A program made the position numbers and the translations under genes. From Thermococcus sp. 4557 (GTDB lineage Archaea > Methanobacteriota_B > Thermococci > Thermococcales > Thermococcaceae), in the NCBI RefSeq assembly GCF_000221185.1, contig NC_015865.1, forward strand, positions 186,001 through 250,000: a DNA stretch of 64,000 nucleotides. The letters run 5' to 3'. Each line of letters opens with the position of its first letter. Within the stretch, counting starts at the first letter, position 1. The notes beneath the pieces were generated by a model. It saw only the letters and a program-made list of their open reading frames with translations. It ran no database searches and was not told where the DNA came from. Positions 31,135 through 40,847 of the stretch are shown here, one piece after another.

Positions 31135-31881
31135 ATGGACGAGTTTGAGAGACTGCTGAAGAAGTATGAGCGGATAGACAAGGACGGCCGGCCCGCCAGG
31201 GGCGGTCGCGATGAGGAGATCACCTACGCCGCGGAGGGCGAGCAGGAGGAGTTCATAAGAATCCCCCGCGACAGGGTTGCGGTCGTCATAGGCAGAAAGG
31301 GACAGACCAAGAGGGAGATAGAGGAGAGGACCAAGACCAGGATAGAGGTGGACAGCGAGACCGGCGAGGTCTTCATAACCTCCACGGAGGAGACCAGCGA
31401 CCCCCTGGCCGTCTGGAAGGCGCGTGACGTGGTAATGGCCATAGGCAGGGGCTTTTCTCCCGAGAGGGCCTTCAGGCTCTTCAACGAGGGGGAGGTTCTT
31501 GAGGTCGTCAACCTGACGGATGTAATAGTAGGCAACGATAAGAACGCCCTTCCCCGCGTCAGGGGGAGGATAATCGGAAGGAAGGGAAGGACGCGCGAGA
31601 TAATCGAGGAGATGAGCGGTGCGGATGTGAGCGTTTACGGAAAAACCGTCGCGATAATCGGCAACCCGATCCAGGTCGAGGTTGCCAAGACCGCCATAGA
31701 GAAGCTCGCCAGGGGCTCCCCGCACGGCGTCGTTTACAAGTACCTTGAGCGCAGAAAGAAGGACCTCGAACTCGAGAGCACGACCTACTACGAGGCCCTT
31801 GAAGGGGAGCCGGGCGATTTCGGGGAGAACTACGAGGGCCCCGATGAGGACTACGATGACGAAGACTTTTGGGAGGACTGA
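31135..31881 (+). CDS. Two-KH-domain RNA-binding protein (Pno1/Dim2-like)
   Basis: 248 residues with two KH modules, each with a GxxG loop: VAVVIGRKGQTKREIEE (near 46) and GRIIGRKGRTREIIEEM (near 145). The tail is strongly acidic (EDYDDEDFWED). The archaeal protein is linked with Rio1 and aIF2alpha and binds the 3' end of 16S rRNA during 30S maturation. It lies between rio1 and top6B and its end runs 2 bp before the top6B ATG. Confidence 0.92.
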   Translation: MDEFERLLKKYERIDKDGRPARGGRDEEITYAAEGEQEEFIRIPRDRVAVVIGRKGQTKREIEERTKTRIEVDSETGEVFITSTEETSDPLAVWKARDVVMAIGRGFSPERAFRLFNEGEVLEVVNLTDVIVGNDKNALPRVRGRIIGRKGRTREIIEEMSGADVSVYGKTVAIIGNPIQVEVAKTAIEKLARGSPHGVVYKYLERRKKDLELESTTYYEALEGEPGDFGENYEGPDEDYDDEDFWED

Positions 31882-31883
31882 AT

Positions 31884-33581
31884 ATGGCCGAGGCGAATCA
31901 GCTGTTTAAGGAGTTCAAAATCCAGAGCGTCAGTGAGTTCTTCAGACGGAACGCGGCAATGCTCGGCTACACGGGCAAGATACGCTCCCTCACCACGGTG
32001 ATCCATGAGGCCGTGACCAACTCACTCGACGCCTGTGAAGAGGCGGGCATACTTCCCTACGTCCGTGTTGAGATAGAGGAGCTTGGAAGGGAGCACTACA
32101 AGGTCATAATCGAGGACAACGGACCGGGAATTCCCGAGAAGTACATAACCCACGTCTTCGGTAAGATGCTGGCCGGAACCAAGGCCCACAGGAACATACA
32201 GAGCCGCGGCCAGCAGGGTATCGGTATAAGCGGCGCCGTTATGTTCGCCCAGATAACGAGCGGAAAGGCAACGCGCGTCATCACATCCACGGGCGACGAC
32301 AAGATCATCGAGGCATGGGTTAAGATAGACGTTGACAGGAACGAGGGCAAGATTGTGAAGAAGGAGAAGCACCCCAACCCGAAGGGCTGGCGCGGCACCA
32401 GGATAGAGCTGGAGGTGAAGAACGTCCGCTACGTGCGCTCAAAGCAGGGCGTTTACTGGTACCTCAAGCTCACCGCGATAGCCAACCCGCACGCCCACAT
32501 AGAGCTCATTGAACCCGACGGGAGGCTCATAGTATTCCCGCGCTCCAGCGAGGACGTTCCCGAGCCCCCGGTGGAGATGAAGCCCCATCCGCGCGGCGTC
32601 CTCACCGACGATGTTTACAGGATGGCCAAGAAGACGAGGAGGAGTTCCGTCAAGCGCTTCCTCGTTGGGGAGTTCTCGAGGATAAGCGACAAGAAAATCG
32701 ACGAGCTCGTTGAGTACATCGCGGCGCTGAGGCTCATAAAGACGGAGGACGACAAGAATGTCCAGGAACAGCTCTACGAGAGGCTCATGAAGGGCGAGGT
32801 AAAGGCCGTCCTGCGCTCGTTCAGGGGCTACACGAAGGTCGTCAAGCAGGTTGCGAAGCTCATGGAGAAGCCGCCCGAGAAGCTGAGCTGGCACGAGGCT
32901 GAGGAGATAGTCGAGGCCTTCAAATACATGAAGTTCCTGGCCCCGCCGACCCACGGCCTCAGGCCCATCGGCGAGGAGAACATAGAGAAGGGCCTCACCA
33001 ACATCCTCAAGCCGGAGTTCGTCACCGCGGTCACCAGGTCGCCGAAGGTCTACTCCGGAGGTATACCGTTCCAGGTCGAGGTCGGTCTCGCTTACGGCGG
33101 CGAGATTCCCGGAGGTTTCGAGCTCCTCCGCTACGCCAACCGCGTGCCGCTGCTCTTCGATGCCGGCTCCTGTGTAACGACGCTGGCGGCGCGCTCCGTT
33201 GATTGGAGGCGCTACAAGGTTGATGACCTCGACCGCGCACCTCTCGTGCTCATGATAAACGTCATCAGCGTTCATGTGCCGTATACCGGCACAGGAAAGC
33301 AGAGCATCGCCAACGTGGAGGAGATACAGAACGAGATAAGGCTTGCAATAATGGACGCTGCAAGGAGACTTCAGACGTACCTCAGCGGAAAGCACCGCAG
33401 ACTCCACCAGGCCAAGAGGAGGAGGACCTTCGAGAAATACGTGCCCGAGATAGCGAGGGCCCTGAGCGTACTCACCGGGGAGCCCGAGGAGGAGGTTAAG
33501 AACTACTTCCTGTCCTACATAGAGGGCCACTTCGCGGCCAAGGAGGCAGGTGGCGCGGAGGAGGTGAGCGAGAATGCCTAA
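31884..33581 (+). CDS. top6B: DNA topoisomerase VI subunit B
   Basis: 566 residues of GHKL-type ATPase: [15 protein letters not shown] (N box), [14 protein letters not shown] (G1) and [17 protein letters not shown] (G2 lid), then the H2TH insert and the transducer domain. With subunit A it passes one duplex through another in an ATP-dependent way and relaxes both supercoil signs. ATG 31884 follows GGGAGGACTGAAT. It overlaps top6A by 8 bp. Confidence 0.97.
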
Positions 33582-34734
33582 ATCCAAAGCAGTCAGGCGC
33601 GAGAAGCCGAGGGAGCGCTTTTCCTATGACCCGACCAAAGTGCTCACCAGGCTCGAGGAGTACGGAAAGAAAATCCTTGAGGACATAAAGGCCGGAAAGA
33701 ACCCCTACTTCGACATCCCCATGCGCGGCATCGGCAACGTTTACTTCGACGAGAAGAGGCGCGTCATCAGGATGGGCGACAAGCTCTCAAGGCGCTACTT
33801 CCTCAACGTTGCCCACGCTAGGAAGTTCATGCAGACGCTCCTCATAATGGCCTACGTCAAGCGCCTCGTGAGCGAGAACAAGCACGCGAGCCTTCGTGAA
33901 GCCTACTACGCCAACAAGCACACTATCCCGGGAACGAAGGAGAACACCTTCGAGGACCAGCGCGAGAGCGACCCCATCATAGAGGACCTCGAGAGGATGA
34001 TGGGCGTCCTTCGTGAGGAGATGCACCTCACGGCTGACAGGCGCGGCTACATCTACGGCGACATAGTCATTCGCGACGGCGAGGATGAGTTCAACACCAG
34101 CAAGCTCGGTATGGGCGGCTGGGCCGTCCCGGGAACCGTCGAGCACCTTCAGTTCGTTGAGGTCAACGTCGACTACGCCCTCGTTGTCGAGACAGCCGCT
34201 ATGGCCGACCGTCTCATCGAGGAAAAGTTCCCGAAGAAGGAGAACGCCCTCATCATAGCGACCCAGGGGCAGGCCTCGCGTGGCGTCAGGAGGCTCATTC
34301 ACAGGCTCCACTACGAGGAGGGTCTTCCGATAATAGTCTTCACCGATGGCGACCCCTACGGTTGGTACATCTACTCCACCATAAAGCAGGGCTCCATCAA
34401 CCTCGCCTACCTCAGCGACAAGCTGGCGACGCCGGAGGCGAAGTTCGTTGGAATGACCATGGACGATATAGAGCGCTACGGCCTCAAGAACGTCACCGAA
34501 AAGCTCAAGGGAATCCCGCCGAACAAGAAGGGCGGCCCGACGGCGGATTACAAGAGAATCCTGGAGGAGATGGAGTACCCGTGGTTCCAGAACAAGGAGT
34601 GGCAGAGGCAGCTCAAGATGGCGATCAAGATGGGGGTCAGGATAGAGCAGCAGGCCCTCGCCAACAAGAGCCTCGAGTTCGTCGCGAAGAAGTACCTCCC
34701 CGAAAAGATAAACAACGGTGAGCTCCTGCCATGA
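33574..34734 (+). CDS. top6A: DNA topoisomerase VI subunit A (Spo11-like)
   Basis: 386 residues: the 5Y-CAP domain with the catalytic Tyr in KEVT-type context (here [13 protein letters not shown] region near residue 107-116) and the Toprim fold with [13 protein letters not shown] and [14 protein letters not shown], whose Asp pair binds Mg. GGAGGTGAGCGAGAATG overlaps the end of top6B. The DUF530 gene begins in the last 4 bases (ATGA). Confidence 0.97.
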
Positions 34735-35978
34735 CGACGACTGAAGAGCTCGTCGCACAGGTTAACAAGATACTGGACGATATCGGGATAGACATGGACG
34801 GGTTATTCGAGACCTTCGACATCCCGTCCATCTCCTTCCGTTTAAAGGAGAACCTCTCGCTCCTTCGGGAGCTTGAGGACGACCTCTCAAGGCGCGTGGG
34901 TGAGACCACACCCTCGGCTGGATTCTCGGACAAAAAGAACAAGGACCCCCACATCCAGTGGATATACAAGAAGAAGCGCAACCGCGTCCTTGCCCTTGAG
35001 AGGCTCCGCTCGGCCATAACGGCTCACAAGATGGCCCTCGCACTCATCTCCGCCAACTACACCTTCTTCATGGGGAAGAAACTCGTGAGCCTCAGGGAGC
35101 TCACGAGGGAGAACGTCGAGCGGATCAAGGCCGTTCCCAACCCCGTTCAACTCGGGCGCGTTGAGGTTCTTCCCCACTTCGCCTACTCCGGCGACGTCCT
35201 CCGTCTGCTCGCCAGGGAGAGCGTGGACGTCAGGGAGTCGTTCAAGTTCATAAAGGGCAAGCTCCGCGAGAAGGGAACCGTCAGGAACCGCGGGATCAGG
35301 ATAGAGGTTGAGTACTGGGAGAACAACCGCCTGAAGAAGGCCCGCCTCGACCTGCCCACGGATGCGGACATAGAGGCTGAACTCCGCCAGAGGTACGGGA
35401 GGCGCTTCCGCTGGCGCGTTCTGAGCTTCGTCAAGACGCGTGGGGTGCTCATAAACAACCACTACACGGTGGACAACCTGGCCCTGGCATACTCCATCCT
35501 TGATCCTGAAAACGGCGCCAGGAAGCTCGGCCTCGACCTCTTCCGCTACTACTTCCTGACCTCCGAGAACGAGAGGGAGAGCCTGGGCCTCTATCCGGAC
35601 ATAAGGCTCTGCATCGACTGCCACTATTCGATATTTGACCTTCCCTTCGCCGACGAGAAGGGATTCAGAACGGGCCACGGCAGCATGTTCCTCATCAGGA
35701 AGTGTGAGATGGAAAAGGCCCTCGTGGGGAGGAGGAAGGACATATCCAACGTTCCCAACCACCTCCTTGGCGGAGTGCTCCTCTACGGAATGAGCGAGTA
35801 CAGCGAAGACAAAGTCGCGGAGCTTCTCGGAATTCCTGCCGACGAGCTGGTTGAGGCCGTGAAGAAGTTCGTCATCTCCGGCCTGCACAAGAGGCTCTTC
35901 GCCGACACGAAGAAGTTCGAGAAGTTCATGCCCAAGAGCGACAAGGCCAAACAGTTCCTGGCCCTCCTCCAGGGGTGA
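34731..35978 (+). CDS. DUF530 family protein, linked to topoisomerase VI
   Basis: 415 residues matching, as I recall, the archaeal DUF530 family. Visible features: charged helical N-terminus, a conserved-looking [19 protein letters not shown] with a Cys pair, and a C-terminal segment [20 protein letters not shown] that reads like a helix-turn-helix. It begins in the ATGA overlap with top6A and is followed 4 nt later by the DUF1699 gene, so all four proteins share a transcript. Function unknown; the coupling suggests a DNA-related role. Confidence 0.75.
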
Positions 35979-35982
35979 GGGT

Positions 35983-36399
35983 ATGAGGGTGGAGATAAAA
36001 GCGCGCAACAACGCGGAGCTGATAGCAAAGCTCAGGGAGTCCCTGAATGAGGAGGTTACAGAGGTCTACATCAACCTCCGCCCGACGAAGGAGATACTCG
36101 TCAGGATACTCGAGCGGGCCCCCAACGTGCGCAAAATCTCCTGCCCGCCCAGCCTCTACCCCAAGGTCTCCAAGAGGGTCATCGCCGCGCTCGCCCAGAT
36201 GGGCATAGAACTCGTCCCCGAGGGCTACCCCCGCGGAAGGCCGCGGAAATACAACGAACGCACCATCCGGGAGGTTCAGAACCTCCTGATGAAGGGGGTG
36301 CCGGCAAAGGAGATAAGCACCCGCATGGGCATCCCCCTGAGGACGGTCTATTACCTCCTGGAGCAGACCGGGATGAAACCCGACCGCAGGGGCACCTGA
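35983..36399 (+). CDS. DUF1699 family protein with C-terminal helix-turn-helix
   Basis: 138 residues. The N-terminal 85 look like the DUF1699 fold (YINLRPTKEILVRILERAPNVRKISCPPSLYP), and the end is a resolvase-like helix-turn-helix: GRPRKYNERTIREVQNLLMKGVPAKEISTRMGI. It probably binds DNA. It closes the topoisomerase VI transcript and precedes the mcrBC promoter on the same strand. Confidence 0.78.
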   Translation: MRVEIKARNNAELIAKLRESLNEEVTEVYINLRPTKEILVRILERAPNVRKISCPPSLYPKVSKRVIAALAQMGIELVPEGYPRGRPRKYNERTIREVQNLLMKGVPAKEISTRMGIPLRTVYYLLEQTGMKPDRRGT

Positions 36400-36429
36400 A
36401 TTCCCTCTCTCCGTCAGTTTTTTACCAAA

Positions 36430-36470
36430 GATTTTTATACTCTGGCATATAATTCCGTTGGGTGGTCGTA
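36430..36470 (+). promoter_or_regulatory. mcrBC promoter and ribosome site
   Basis: ATTTTTATAC (36431-36440) is a TATA box 31 bp ahead of GGGTGGTCGTA and the mcrB ATG at 36471, giving a very short leader. The system therefore has its own promoter rather than reading through from DUF1699. Confidence 0.55.
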
Positions 36471-38585
36471 ATGGCGAGTATAGAACCTTTGAGAAATTCT
36501 ATTTACTCCATCAACACATTTCTGAAGGGGGAGTACGAGGAATTTGGCTTCGTCATCGAAGAGGCTATCCTCTTCCCGTCAGGGGAGCATATGGCGGTCA
36601 TGGTAAGGCTTGAAGACGATTCCCGGTTTCTCCATGTTTTCAACACTGAGGGCACCATCATGCCCGGCTGGGAAAAGGGAATCTCTATTCCCTGCGCCGA
36701 CGAAGCCATACTTTTCCCGGGAAGGAATGGACTGGCGGTTTTCACGAAATGTGCCCCTGGTAAGGTGACCATCTACCCCGTGGTTGCCAAGGATCCGGAG
36801 GGGGAGTCGATCACCGTGACCTTCTCAAAGCTTCCCCTCTACGTGAACTTCACTCCAGAGGGGAGGCTGCTTTTCTTCGGCGACCATCACCTCGAGTACT
36901 TCGCTCCCGAGGGCCTTGGGGTTGTCAAGATACCCACTCCTCCTAATGGTTACGCCTACATTCACACCGTTGTGGACAGTAAAGAGGCACTTTACATGCT
37001 TTACACTTGGAGAAACGAGGGGAAACAAAGGCTAATGGTGGGAAGAATAAAGATTCCGGTTTTCCCCTACTACTCCCCCCGGGAGTTCTGGAACGGTATT
37101 GAAACAGTGTCCGCTGCATCGATGGTTTTGGGGAGCGGTAAGCCCGTGGGCGATCTGTACCTGCAAGAGGACGGTTCCTTCGTGGCTGTTCTCGGAACTA
37201 AGGGGGGTAGGGAAATCTACCTTCTAACACCCAGCCGGACAGGAGTCGTACTTATTCCCGGCGAGCTTATATACCTCCGCTTCACCTCGCGGGGGCTGTT
37301 CTTGATAACCGGGGTATACGGGGGCAGTATAAGTGCGGGCATCGTGCCACTGGAGCGCCTTCTCGAGTCCAGGGAAATCGGACGGGACGACCTTGAGGGC
37401 GTGTTCTCCCTCGGACGGTACGTGCCGAGCGTGGTGGATCCCAAGTATGCCGGCGTTTCAGACGACTGCGAAATCCTCTACCTGGGGAGAACGGCCTACC
37501 GCGCGGCAGGCCAGAAGCATTACTACTACCTCCGCAGGGACGTGGACTACCTCTACAGAATACGCTGGGAAACAGGAAGTGAGGAGCGCGAGGAGGCAGA
37601 GGCCCGGGAGGAAGAGGAGAATGCTGAGGAGGTGGGGTCTATAAGAACCCTCCTCCGGAGGTTCAGGCAGGTCATACTCTATGGCCCTCCCGGTACCGGG
37701 AAGACTTACCTCGCCCGGAAGGTTGCGATTAAGCCGGAGTTCGTATCCTTCCACCAGTCCTTCAGTTACGAGGACTTCGTTGAGGGCTTCCGGCCGGCGA
37801 AAGGCAGGGACGGCGTCGTTTACGACGTGGTGGACGGGGTTTTCAAGAGAACAGCCGTGGAGGCCATCTACGACTCCCTCCCCGAGAAGTTCAGGAGGAG
37901 GAACGCCACCTACGCGGAGAAGAAGAGAGCGGTTTTAGATTTCCTCGAAAGGAGGAAGGCGGGGGAGAAGGTGAAGCTGACCCCGCGGAGGGAGTTCTAC
38001 CTCGTCATAGACGAGATAAACCGCGGCAACATAAGCAGGATTTTCGGAGAGCTTATAACTCTCCTTGACCCCGACAAGAGGCTGGACGGACCCAACGAGA
38101 CCATCATGAGACTCCCATACTCTGGGGAACTGTTCGCGGTTCCACCAAATCTCTACATAATCGGCACAATGAACTCCGCCGACAGGAGTATAGCGTTGCT
38201 TGACATCGCCCTGAGGAGAAGGTTCGCGTTCTACGAGGTCCTACCAAGGCCTGAACTGCTGTCCGGAATGGGAGTCGGCGGAGTGAACTTGGAGCATCTC
38301 CTCTCGAGGCTCAACGCCATCATAGAGAGGGAGAAAGGCAAGGATTACACCATAGGGCACGGCTACTTCATGGACATCGCATCGTCCGAGAACCCGGAGG
38401 AGGATCTCTACCTGGTGTTCTACCACAAGATACTGCCCCTCTTCCAGGAGTACTTCTACGGCAACTGGGAGCAATTGGGGTCATTCTATCCTGGCTTCGA
38501 GTTCATAGACGACAGGGGCAGGATAGTGAAGATGGACCAGAAGTCTTTCATGGAGGCCCTTCGCCGGCTGGTGAGGGTGGAATGA
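36471..38585 (+). CDS. mcrB: McrB-type AAA+ restriction motor with beta-propeller-like N-terminus
   Basis: 704 residues. The C-terminal half is McrB-family AAA+: P-loop YGPPGTGKTYL (about 403-413), FHQSFSYEDFVEGFRP, Walker B YLVIDEINRGN (about 510) and the McrB signature GTMNSADRSIALLD (about 564), then the arginine-rich LRRRFAFYEV. In place of a known methyl-DNA reader, the first 370 residues show repeated short strands of the type AILFPSGEHMAVMV, AILFPGRNGLAVF, YVNFTPEGRLLFF, DLYLQEDGSFVAVLG, as in a beta-propeller. An acidic linker (EEREEAEAREEEENAEE) joins the halves. It overlaps mcrC by 4 bp. The ligand read by the N-terminus is unknown. Confidence 0.9.
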   Translation: MASIEPLRNSIYSINTFLKGEYEEFGFVIEEAILFPSGEHMAVMVRLEDDSRFLHVFNTEGTIMPGWEKGISIPCADEAILFPGRNGLAVFTKCAPGKVTIYPVVAKDPEGESITVTFSKLPLYVNFTPEGRLLFFGDHHLEYFAPEGLGVVKIPTPPNGYAYIHTVVDSKEALYMLYTWRNEGKQRLMVGRIKIPVFPYYSPREFWNGIETVSAASMVLGSGKPVGDLYLQEDGSFVAVLGTKGGREIYLLTPSRTGVVLIPGELIYLRFTSRGLFLITGVYGGSISAGIVPLERLLESREIGRDDLEGVFSLGRYVPSVVDPKYAGVSDDCEILYLGRTAYRAAGQKHYYYLRRDVDYLYRIRWETGSEEREEAEAREEEENAEEVGSIRTLLRRFRQVILYGPPGTGKTYLARKVAIKPEFVSFHQSFSYEDFVEGFRPAKGRDGVVYDVVDGVFKRTAVEAIYDSLPEKFRRRNATYAEKKRAVLDFLERRKAGEKVKLTPRREFYLVIDEINRGNISRIFGELITLLDPDKRLDGPNETIMRLPYSGELFAVPPNLYIIGTMNSADRSIALLDIALRRRFAFYEVLPRPELLSGMGVGGVNLEHLLSRLNAIIEREKGKDYTIGHGYFMDIASSENPEEDLYLVFYHKILPLFQEYFYGNWEQLGSFYPGFEFIDDRGRIVKMDQKSFMEALRRLVRVE

Positions 38586-39985
38586 AAAGGATTACCCTCT
38601 ACGAGTTCCAGAGGAAGTACCTGAGCACTATCCGTATGGAGGGCATGGACGTTACTCCCGAGAGCCTCCAGAGGTTCTTCGAGGTCATAAACAGCCTCTA
38701 CGGTAGAGAACATGAGGTCCTGAGCCTCAAGTACGACACGAGGCGGGGCGAGTACTACATCAAGGCCCACGGGAGTGTCGGCTTCGCCTACCATCTGAGC
38801 GAGCCTGGCTTTATGGTACAGGTGCTTCCCAGGCCTTACAGGCACGACCCTGATGAGTCCCGCTCCCTGCGCTTTTTCCTTAGCCTGATGAACCTCAGCG
38901 GGGGTTTGGGGCTTGGACGGAAAGAGATAGACGATGCCGTCGCCATCTACGCGCGGGGCGAGGGAGGGGTTCACGAGCTGTTCATGTACCTCTACGTTTA
39001 CCTGCTGGGCAGGGAACTCTTTCACGGCCTTTACAGGGGGTACTCGGAGGTTGAGGAGGAACTTCAGACGATACGGGGAAGGGTCCTTCTCTCCCGCCTG
39101 GCCAGGAGGCCCCCACTGGGTCGGGACGTTCCCGTGAGGCACGCGGTCCTCGACGTGGACACGCCCCTGAACAGGGTCCTGAGGGCGGCCCTGGAGGTGG
39201 TCGTGGAGGTTTCGGCGTGGGAGGGTGTGGCGAGGTCGGCCGAGGCTCTGGTGAGGTACTTTGCCGACGTCGGTCCTCTCCGGCAGGACGACATTAAGCG
39301 TGTCTCGTTCAACCCCCTGAACGAGAGGTTCAGGCCGATATTTCACCTGGCCACGATGATACTGATGGGCTTTGGAAAGCTCCCCGGGAAAGGCCTGATG
39401 GTGCCGGGAATATTCATAGAGATGGACCGCCTGTTCGAGGACCTTGTTTATCACACCGTCCTTACCGCCATCTCCGGAAGGGGAAGGGTTCACAGGCAAC
39501 ACCCCCTGCCGCCCATCGTCAGGGACGCGGAGGAGATAGGGGCCCGGACCGGTGCCGTCTTCACCTTCGGCCCGCCAAGACCTGACATCTTCGTCCAGAT
39601 GCCCGAGGGCCGGTGCATTCTGGAGGTGAAGTACCGGAACCTGAGTGTAAAGATGGGCGACACCTGGTGGCGCAAGCTCGTCAGAAGTAGTAGCGAACTC
39701 TACCAGGTTTACTCCTACTCCCGCATCTCCGGGGGAGGGGCGCTCCTAGTGTACCCTCGTCTTATGGGCCAGTACAACGGGTGGCTTCCGGACATGTTTG
39801 ATGAGAGCATCGAGACCTTCAGCTTCTTTGACGGCACTCCCTTGGGGATAGTGGGCTACGAGCTGTCGCGCATTGGCAGGGAGGTGCTCATAGCGCGCAG
39901 GGGAGTAGTCATCGACGGAAAAATCGCGGGGAACGTTAGGAGCCTCCTAGAGTCGGTATGCGCGTTGAAGGGGGAAAGGGTTTAA
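38582..39985 (+). CDS. mcrC: McrC-type nuclease subunit
   Basis: 467 residues. The N-terminal part is a McrC-like small beta domain with YHLSEPGFMVQVLPRPYR; the C-terminal part is a PD-(D/E)xK nuclease, GPPRPDIFVQMPEG then ILEVKYR (about 332-355), matching the D and E-x-K catalytic residues. With McrB it forms a translocating complex that cuts DNA after stalling. ATGA overlap with mcrB couples translation. The system is a modification-dependent (type IV) restriction system by family; the modification recognised is not predictable. Confidence 0.9.
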   Translation: MKRITLYEFQRKYLSTIRMEGMDVTPESLQRFFEVINSLYGREHEVLSLKYDTRRGEYYIKAHGSVGFAYHLSEPGFMVQVLPRPYRHDPDESRSLRFFLSLMNLSGGLGLGRKEIDDAVAIYARGEGGVHELFMYLYVYLLGRELFHGLYRGYSEVEEELQTIRGRVLLSRLARRPPLGRDVPVRHAVLDVDTPLNRVLRAALEVVVEVSAWEGVARSAEALVRYFADVGPLRQDDIKRVSFNPLNERFRPIFHLATMILMGFGKLPGKGLMVPGIFIEMDRLFEDLVYHTVLTAISGRGRVHRQHPLPPIVRDAEEIGARTGAVFTFGPPRPDIFVQMPEGRCILEVKYRNLSVKMGDTWWRKLVRSSSELYQVYSYSRISGGGALLVYPRLMGQYNGWLPDMFDESIETFSFFDGTPLGIVGYELSRIGREVLIARRGVVIDGKIAGNVRSLLESVCALKGERV

Positions 39986-40009
39986 AGTTTGGCACGTTAG
40001 TTTCCTCTG

Positions 40010-40786
40010 ATGGACATGGACCAGCGGAAAACCTCCGCGCTCATCATGCTCACCCTCATGGTTACCTTCGCCCTCATCCAGTCCTCAACCGTCCACGGCG
40101 GCACGACGGCCCTTAACTTCGAGTGGTACTTCTTCCTCTCCGCACTCTTCCTCTTCGGTGCCGCAGGTTACATCGTCAAGCTGGCCATCGAGGGCCGTCT
40201 CAACACCCGCAGCGCGAGGAAGGGGAAGAGAAACATCTTCGCAGACATGATAACGTTCCTGGCGCTGATGGTCGCGGTTTATCTGCTCTTCTTCAACAGG
40301 AGGCCTGAGAAGCTGGTGGAGGGCAAAGAAGTGGGTAGGACCCTCGAGGGGGTCTGGTACAACGTCACATCGGGCGATTTCGTGGTGGTGTGGAGGCAGT
40401 TCCCGGGCTGGGCCTACCTGATTCCAGTCCTTCTCTTCGTGGCCATAGTCCTCACGGCCAGACATGTCAAGAAAAAGCGGCCCGTTCCGGAGGTCAAGTT
40501 CGAGCCTGAGCTTACCTACGACGCCATCGAGGGAACGCCCGCTGAGAAGGTTATTCGAATGTACAAGAACGTTGTCGAGGGCCTCGTGGAAAAGGGATAT
40601 CCCTACCGGAAGAGCTGGACCCACTGGGAGCACGAGGAGAAGCTGAGGGAGATATTCCCCGACCTCAAGGACCTGGACGTTCTTACCCGGCTCTTCGAGA
40701 AAGCCAGATACGCCGAAAGATTGAGTGATGGGGACGTCGCTGTCGCCCGCGAGAGCTACGACAGACTCATGGAGTTCCTCAGGTAG
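40010..40786 (+). CDS. Membrane protein with DUF4129 domain
   Basis: 258 residues. Four hydrophobic helices are visible (ALIMLTLMVTFALIQSS, WYFFLSALFLFGAAGYIV, MITFLALMVAVYLLFF and WAYLIPVLLFVAIVLTA), followed by a cytosolic DUF4129 domain from about residue 170 (PAEKVIRMYKNVVEGLVEKG, ILTRLFEKARY-type end). Such proteins often accompany MoxR ATPase, DUF58 and transglutaminase genes; none adjoin here. Role unknown. Confidence 0.78.
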   Translation: MDMDQRKTSALIMLTLMVTFALIQSSTVHGGTTALNFEWYFFLSALFLFGAAGYIVKLAIEGRLNTRSARKGKRNIFADMITFLALMVAVYLLFFNRRPEKLVEGKEVGRTLEGVWYNVTSGDFVVVWRQFPGWAYLIPVLLFVAIVLTARHVKKKRPVPEVKFEPELTYDAIEGTPAEKVIRMYKNVVEGLVEKGYPYRKSWTHWEHEEKLREIFPDLKDLDVLTRLFEKARYAERLSDGDVAVARESYDRLMEFLR

Positions 40787-40847
40787 CGGGTAGCTTTAAA
40801 AGGGGCCGCGGTTAGAACCACCTAACTGAAAAGTGAGGGTGATGCTG

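Follow-up and report, generated by a model that had tools for sequence, protein, structure and literature searches.

The mcrBC operon described here belongs by its machinery to the McrBC systems, as judged from sequence, while the N-terminal domain of its McrB falls outside the reader families tested and can be predicted with good confidence to be a WD40-like β-propeller; this variant is apparently undescribed. The operon lies in a window of 64,000 nucleotides from Thermococcus sp. 4557 (contig NC_015865.1, positions 186,001 to 250,000). Coordinates without a genome or locus name are those of the window, and the papers cited were available to us in excerpts, to which all statements about them refer. 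The operon comprises the following features:

36434 to 36439, plus strand: TATA-like box TTTATA between the HTH and mcrB genes, possibly an own promoter
36471 to 38585, plus strand: mcrB, 704 amino acids, predicted N-terminal β-propeller fused to a McrB-type AAA+ GTPase
36471 to 37568, plus strand: WD40-like β-propeller, residues 1-366, predicted with AlphaFold2 and VIA-align, probably seven blades
37569 to 37652, plus strand: acidic linker, residues 367-394, predicted to be mainly helical with low confidence
37653 to 38582, plus strand: McrB GTPase motor, residues 395-704 (Pfam AAA_5, E 4.1e-16)
38582 to 39985, plus strand: mcrC, 467 amino acids, its first 4 nt shared with mcrB (PF10117, E 3e-47)

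The mcrBC machinery and the predicted propeller

The mcrB open reading frame begins with ATG at 36471 and ends with the stop codon at 38585, and an alternative GTG is located 9 nt 5' of the ATG. The G-rich sequence GGTGGTC directly 5' of the ATG, as a putative ribosome site, and TTTATA, which we take to be a possible archaeal promoter of mcrB, would both fit a start at this ATG.

Against the PDB, the motor matched McrB of T. gammatolerans (6ut3, E 4.2e-74; 6ut5, E 2e-73). It contains the Walker A motif GPPGTGKT (residues 405-412), the Walker B region DEINRG (514-519), NSAD (568-571), an instance of the NxxD pattern defined as the McrB GTPase signature (PMC11090510), and RRRF (582-585). These motifs are unchanged in 21 of 21 homologues, except that the third letter of NSAD is A or T. 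The nuclease motif PD-x(n)-EVK of McrC is intact in the window protein, and PD...ExK was present in 19 of the 20 McrC proteins examined, the remaining one being a contig-end fragment. With a McrB-type GTPase and an adjoining McrC carrying PD-(D/E)xK, the pair can be assigned to McrBC. It does not fall into the CoCoNuT branch, as its motif NSAD reads NxxD and not NxD and a propeller takes the place of the coiled coil.

An earlier note on this DNA had proposed a propeller-like N-terminal region, to be examined by structure prediction and a count of the blades. AlphaFold2, given 5 of the 21 homologous sequences as input for residues 1-372, returned a mostly beta model with an N-terminal helix (mean pLDDT 86.3, pTM 0.86). 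The top rows of a Foldseek search of the PDB were proteins that bear propellers, among them LRP6, IFT-A, prolyl oligopeptidases and WD40 proteins (best E 4.4e-08), at modest TM-scores (maximum 0.52 by query length among the best 50 rows). When 968 chains taken from the Foldseek list were aligned with VIA-align, 929 reached a Z of at least 8, the best being 8cuk_A, the WD40 domain of Vps11, with a Z of 17.1 (289 residues aligned within model residues 1-367 at an rmsd of 4.2). The model thus agrees with the proposed propeller.

Seven is the most likely number of blades, as inferred from the strand order of the model, which yields seven A-B-C-D sets. Seven A-B turns were counted (FPSGE, GRN, TPEGR, SKE, QEDGS, SR and SDDCE), and FPSGEH, FTPEGR and QEDGSF, the turns named in the earlier note, are those of blades 1, 3 and 5. 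The helix (residues 8-25) comes after the first strand (2-6), which in the model probably closes blade 7 as its outer strand. Blade 7 is the least certain, with pLDDT below 50 at residues 342-351 and the strand at 322-329 missing in the model of the full-length protein, and blade 3 has a strand C of just two residues. Comparison of the blades with one another by hhalign (21 pairs) revealed weak self-similarity with a best probability of 49%; faint profile similarity, in register, was seen for the pairs 1-2, 3-6, 3-7 and 1-5 and none for most others. The full-length model (pLDDT 77, pTM 0.52) retains most of the propeller and does not fix the placement of the two halves. The acidic linker that had been noted between them is present at about residues 367-394, where the model shows mainly a helix (374-398) and is of low confidence for residues 368-379. 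The region had also been described as three times longer than the canonical reader; the E. coli McrB reader has about 160 residues, and the region is about twice as long.

In the window protein, residues 1-368 had no match in Pfam, and the 21 homologues had only scattered ones (E > 0.03). No WD40 model of Pfam reached E ≤ 1 in any of the 21 members, and the best propeller model was Aladin, with E 0.36 in 2 members. Residues 1-368 likewise gave no PHROGs match, and in searches of the whole protein with NCBIfam (best 25 of 31 matches) and PADLOC the best stretches all started at residue 369 or later. The N-terminal profile matched just 9 antibody chains among the PDB sequences, at E of at least 0.24, which were taken as chance. 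A known McrB reader (DUF3578/ADAM, EVE/YTH, DCD or B3) was considered and rejected, since none had a Pfam match at E ≤ 1 in the 21 members and a propeller fold is predicted. Judged by family search and predicted fold, the region therefore does not match a known McrB reader domain.

Distribution, chromosomal site and allele exchange

The propeller domain was found in 21 of the 94 family genomes, all of them from the genus Thermococcus, which is represented by 61 genomes. It had been suggested to look for homologues with other fusion partners; in 21 of 21 homologues the propeller is fused to McrB, and neither a propeller alone nor one with another partner was found in 115 genomes. A profile search of these 115 genomes of the class returned only the 21 loci and one additional match (E 0.0024) inside a 312-aa open reading frame, which looks unrelated and was discarded as chance. 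Scanning of the genome contig collection identified four Thermococcus MAG contigs, all belonging to the 21 loci, and no further propeller relatives were found by a scan of viral contigs and by tblastn in phages and plasmids. When the full McrB was compared with plasmids, 296 records matched, none of them covering 80% of the query, and the best 15 of the 296 aligned only from residue 388 onward. The restriction of the propeller McrB to Thermococcus is valid for the collections searched, namely the family and class genomes and the contig, phage and plasmid sets.

The propeller mcrBC operons share a single place in the chromosome, next to the topoisomerase VI genes, where the window contains these further features:

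35983 to 36399, plus strand: HTH protein (HTH_7, E 1e-05), last gene of the topoisomerase VI row (31869-36399)
36355 to 40015: mcrBC-carrying segment without counterpart in the close relative G044, which has 115 bp instead (blastn, both flanks)
40010 to 40786, plus strand: DUF4129 membrane-type protein (PF13559, E 9.9e-08)

A 415-aa protein (p415; 34731-35978), which was matched in 60 of the 61 Thermococcus genomes, is encoded between the genes for subunit A of topoisomerase VI and the HTH protein. In 19 of 20 related loci mcrB is preceded by the HTH gene, and the same downstream gene, presumably encoding a GTP cyclohydrolase-like protein, is also present in 19 of the 20, the missing case (G065) being a contig end. 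The upstream exception is G061, in which an IS605-type transposase gene (PF01385, E 2e-29; L055:10167-11384) occupies the place of the HTH gene. This transposase is an OrfB_IS605 protein with a Cas12f1-like TNB domain, and the G021 record ends with a piece related to it, located after the HTH gene. A short stretch adjoining mcrB in G061 corresponds to the terminal part of the DUF4129 region in G051 and G037, and the G061 operon apparently occupies the same site, interrupted.

The DUF4129 gene is located 3' of mcrC in five genomes, including that of the window, and 5' of mcrB in four; in the other twelve it was not seen as a gene, with G061 keeping a remnant and G065 having one side visible. 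The window gene and the loci L053, L054, L058 and L059 illustrate the two positions, so mcrBC has arrived or shifted on either side of DUF4129, and at an empty site in G026 (C1:707419-708109; L152) the gene is broken by stop codons. Since it occurs at empty sites and on either side of mcrBC, the DUF4129 gene is part of the locus and not of the McrBC system. Loci were examined in 20 of the 40 Thermococcus genomes without the domain, and in 19 of them the HTH gene is followed directly by the DUF4129 gene or the downstream gene, the record of the twentieth stopping at that point. The flanks of the segment at 36355-40015 are 96% and 94% identical to those of G044 (blastn), and in G029 mcrBC is found on the opposite side of DUF4129. 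The operon has thus entered, left or moved at this one site more than once.

Vertical inheritance, which was first considered for this constant locus, was rejected because the trees of the flanks and of mcrBC conflict. The flank data reject G000+G017 (AU p 9e-29) and the propeller data reject G000+G016+G023 (p 4e-7), where the p values are descriptive as the groups were picked after the identities were known; G041 and G072 shift position between the trees, and for the propeller tree the program warned that long branches meet. Of six groups tested with the motor data, the tree already contained one as a clade, another was rejected (p 0.003), and the remaining four were left undecided (p 0.10-0.33). 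In the comparison of G000 with G016, dS is 0.10-0.15 for the topoisomerase and p415 genes, and the values are 1.86 for the propeller, 1.09 for the motor and 0.86 for McrC; they are also raised downstream, with 0.32 for DUF4129 and 0.66 for the gene after it (40833). The mcrBC operon has been replaced between these two genomes, and alleles of the operon are exchanged between species at one site.

The propeller and motor trees show no strong conflict in shape and differ mainly in branch length, so that the case for a separate history of the propeller is drawn from synonymous divergence and not from tree shape. For G014 and G016, pS is 0.21 in p415, 0.24 in the motor, about 0.2 in McrC and 0.69 in the propeller, with the drop near the domain border; values are also raised in the last part of the HTH gene (0.44) and in the gene at 40833 (dS 0.78). 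Eleven pairs have a motor pS below 0.45, six of which have a propeller pS of 0.56-0.73 (Fisher p < 1e-22), five of these being pairs among G014, G016, G017 and G023 and the sixth G028-G069; the other five are without propeller excess (p 3e-4 to 0.7). Among all 190 pairs, nine reached p < 1e-6, and the propeller was the more diverged part in each. These values indicate that in one four-genome group and one further pair the propeller has its own history apart from the motor, either because the propeller was exchanged or because motor and nuclease were homogenised around a propeller that was left behind. Either cause would give an N-terminal part with a history of its own, as expected of a specificity (targeting) module.

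T. kodakarensis orthologues and candidate ligands of the propeller

In genome G024, taken to be that of T. kodakarensis, the gene order is TopoVI B, TopoVI A, p415, HTH, McrB and McrC. TopoVI B and TopoVI A of this organism are TK0799 and TK0798 (PMC6401487), and the shared gene order TK0799-TK0794 therefore identifies McrB as TK0795 and McrC as TK0794; the G024 McrB has a mass of 79.7 kDa, the value also listed for TK0795 (PMC7325993). Located at the same locus, this McrB, that of McrBC1, is 49% identical to the window McrB over the full length.

Deletions of McrBC1 (TK0794-TK0795) and of McrBC2 (TK1009-TK1010) have been made, and both systems limit plasmid transformation (PMC13385129). The deletion of TK0794-TK0795 increased transformation by autonomous plasmids and only marginally that by integrative ones, relatively similar trends were described for dam+/dcm+ and dam-/dcm- plasmid, unmodified DNA was better in every strain, and the deletion strains grew more poorly. 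According to the legend of Figure 5 of the same study, dam+/dcm+ plasmid was still degraded by lysate without both McrBCs, indicating that a methylation-dependent activity exists besides the two. Unmethylated plasmid was uncut by any lysate, including that of the strain with both McrBCs. The authors ascribed the effect to methylated cytosine and assumed recognition of 5mC/5hmC.

A second McrB family, present in 2 of the 115 genomes, consists of an 828-aa protein in G024 (L144:1252-3735) and an 817-aa protein in G014 (L135:1019-3469), which are 28% identical and whose N-termini of about 400 residues look propeller-like in sequence. By hhalign, the N-termini of the second and first families aligned over 30 columns only, with a probability of 3; a profile search of the PDB gave a single match for the second family (E 0.32), and searches of the viral and plasmid collections gave no relatives. 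The second McrB of G024 and its McrC lie at 881.7-885.6 kb and span 3.9 kb, and the deletion of TK1009-TK1010 is reported as a change from 5.6 to 1.7 kb (PMC13385129). Judged by position and size, this pair matches McrBC2, and if so, both named T. kodakarensis McrBs would bear propeller-like N-termini. McrBs with long N-termini of about 475-625 residues before the motor were also seen at L140:1016-4375 (G027), L137 (G005) and L142 (G093), and those of L140 and L137 had no convincing Pfam domain.

The explanation that we favour, with confidence that is evenly balanced, is that of a McrBC whose WD40-like propeller replaces the modified-base reader and directs the enzyme to a feature of invading replicons that consists of protein, or of protein and DNA, and not to a methylated base. 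The N-terminal domains of T. gammatolerans McrB are located at the outer edge of the hexamer (PMC7680126). Propellers on the McrB hexamer would use their conserved loop face to bind a partner typical of autonomous replicons that enter the cell, either a protein or an assembly of protein and DNA; a replication (initiator) or packaging protein of a plasmid or virus would be a candidate. Ligand binding would bring the motor to the DNA, and GTP-driven translocation and then the McrC cut would follow as in other McrBC enzymes, so that a protein feature, in place of DNA methylation, would direct the system. In its strict form, which we regard as tentative and somewhat doubtful, both T. kodakarensis McrBCs and their relatives would be protein-triggered and modification-independent, with the propeller recognising a protein of autonomous replicons and loading the motor.

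With the loop faces assigned by the strand order of the predicted model, conservation is higher in the loops BC and DA, which form one face (mean entropy 1.06), than in AB and CD (1.41; p 0.002), and the BC and DA face is the one most likely to bind ligands. An arms-race signature was absent, the dN/dS of the propeller being 0.036-0.176 in 13 of 14 pairs and undefined in the fourteenth, and the conserved face is a better fit to a conserved partner than to a fast arms race. The role in sensing proposed earlier finds indirect support in the divergence of the propeller on its own in several close pairs and in the restriction of plasmids by the orthologous operon (PMC13385129). Against the favoured explanation stand the conserved loop face and the low dN/dS, the view of the authors of that study, the better transformation by unmodified DNA in all their strains and the unmethylated plasmid left uncut by lysate containing both McrBCs; homogenisation of motor and McrC may account for the separate histories, the plasmid bias may also arise simply because autonomous plasmids are exposed longer than integrating DNA, and the growth cost of the deletions hints at a role besides defence.

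The propeller could instead be a new reader of modified or structured DNA in an ordinary modification-dependent type IV enzyme, which we consider unlikely. Its pI is acidic (5.0-6.5) in 20 of 20 genomes tested, whereas the N-termini of 16 other McrBs from the family are mixed, 8 having a pI of at least 8.6, 6 of at most 6.5 and 2 a value in between. As a clue to the ligand this difference is suggestive only, and with six of the 16 also acidic, an acidic pI is compatible with DNA binding. WD40 propellers bind protein more commonly than DNA, another point against a DNA reader. A reader of DNA would be in keeping with the DUF3578, YTH and B3 N-terminal domains of McrB, all of which bind DNA (PMC7680126), with the presence of TK0795 among the 26 proteins that Table 3 of PMC7325993 gives for isolated chromosomes of T. 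kodakarensis and with the 5mC/5hmC recognition assumed in PMC13385129, but not readily with the similar effect of the deletion on dam-/dcm- plasmid reported there. Of the two ligand types considered in the earlier note, a protein is therefore favoured and an unusual DNA modification disfavoured, on the basis of the acidic charge and the dam-/dcm- trend.

Docking of McrBC by the propeller on a host protein (chromatin, topoisomerase VI or the replisome) would give McrBC a constitutive, genome-associated role, of which plasmid restriction would be a by-product. This would explain the constant place beside the topoisomerase VI genes, the listing of TopoVI-B together with TK0795 from isolated chromosomes (PMC7325993), the poorer growth of the deletion strains (PMC13385129) and the conserved loop face. 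It is improbable, however, as the propeller McrB was not found in 40 of the 61 Thermococcus genomes, some of them incomplete, the HTH gene runs directly into DUF4129 or the next gene in 19 of the 20 domain-free loci, and the exchange between species resembles that of a defence gene. That the propeller is an assembly or regulatory scaffold of the McrBC complex without a part in target choice is very improbable, for although a large domain stands where the reader would be and eukaryotic WD40 propellers have been described as scaffolds (PMC10907252), the propeller diverges while the motor stays close, which fits a specificity module and is unexpected of a scaffold fitted to its complex.

Relation to known systems and significance

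The McrBC of T. gammatolerans (6ut3-6ut8) shares the homologous GTPase motor and the McrC partner, but its reader is a YTH-fold 6mA reader (PMC7680126), to which the propeller has no sequence relation. The E. coli K-12 McrBC has the same two-gene arrangement of GTPase motor and PD-(D/E)xK nuclease and the NxxD motif, whereas its reader is the methylcytosine reader DUF3578. McrBC1 and McrBC2 of T. kodakarensis have been published as ordinary 5mC/5hmC enzymes, the propeller being unmentioned in the excerpts of that paper (PMC13385129). STAND/NLR-type defence ATPases also place a repeat sensor (WD40 or TPR) beside an NTPase (PMC10907252), which is a functional parallel only, since here the propeller is N-terminal and is joined to a McrB translocase that works with McrC and has no STAND switch. 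No description of a propeller-bearing McrB was found in the open-access literature searched: in the excerpts available, the McrBC census PMC11090510 contains neither 'propeller' nor 'WD40', PMC7641849 does not contain 'propeller', and PMC12707154 uses the word once, of another system.

Few type IV restriction machines are as common as McrBC, whose reader folds, as far as the literature cited describes them (DUF3578, YTH/EVE and B3), all bind DNA. A propeller with its own history, acting as a reader, would widen the possible targets of McrB motors. If this explanation is true, the assumption that McrBC1 and McrBC2 of T. kodakarensis are 5mC enzymes would be called into question, and as this organism is tractable and the deletion strains exist, the ligand of the propeller is directly testable.
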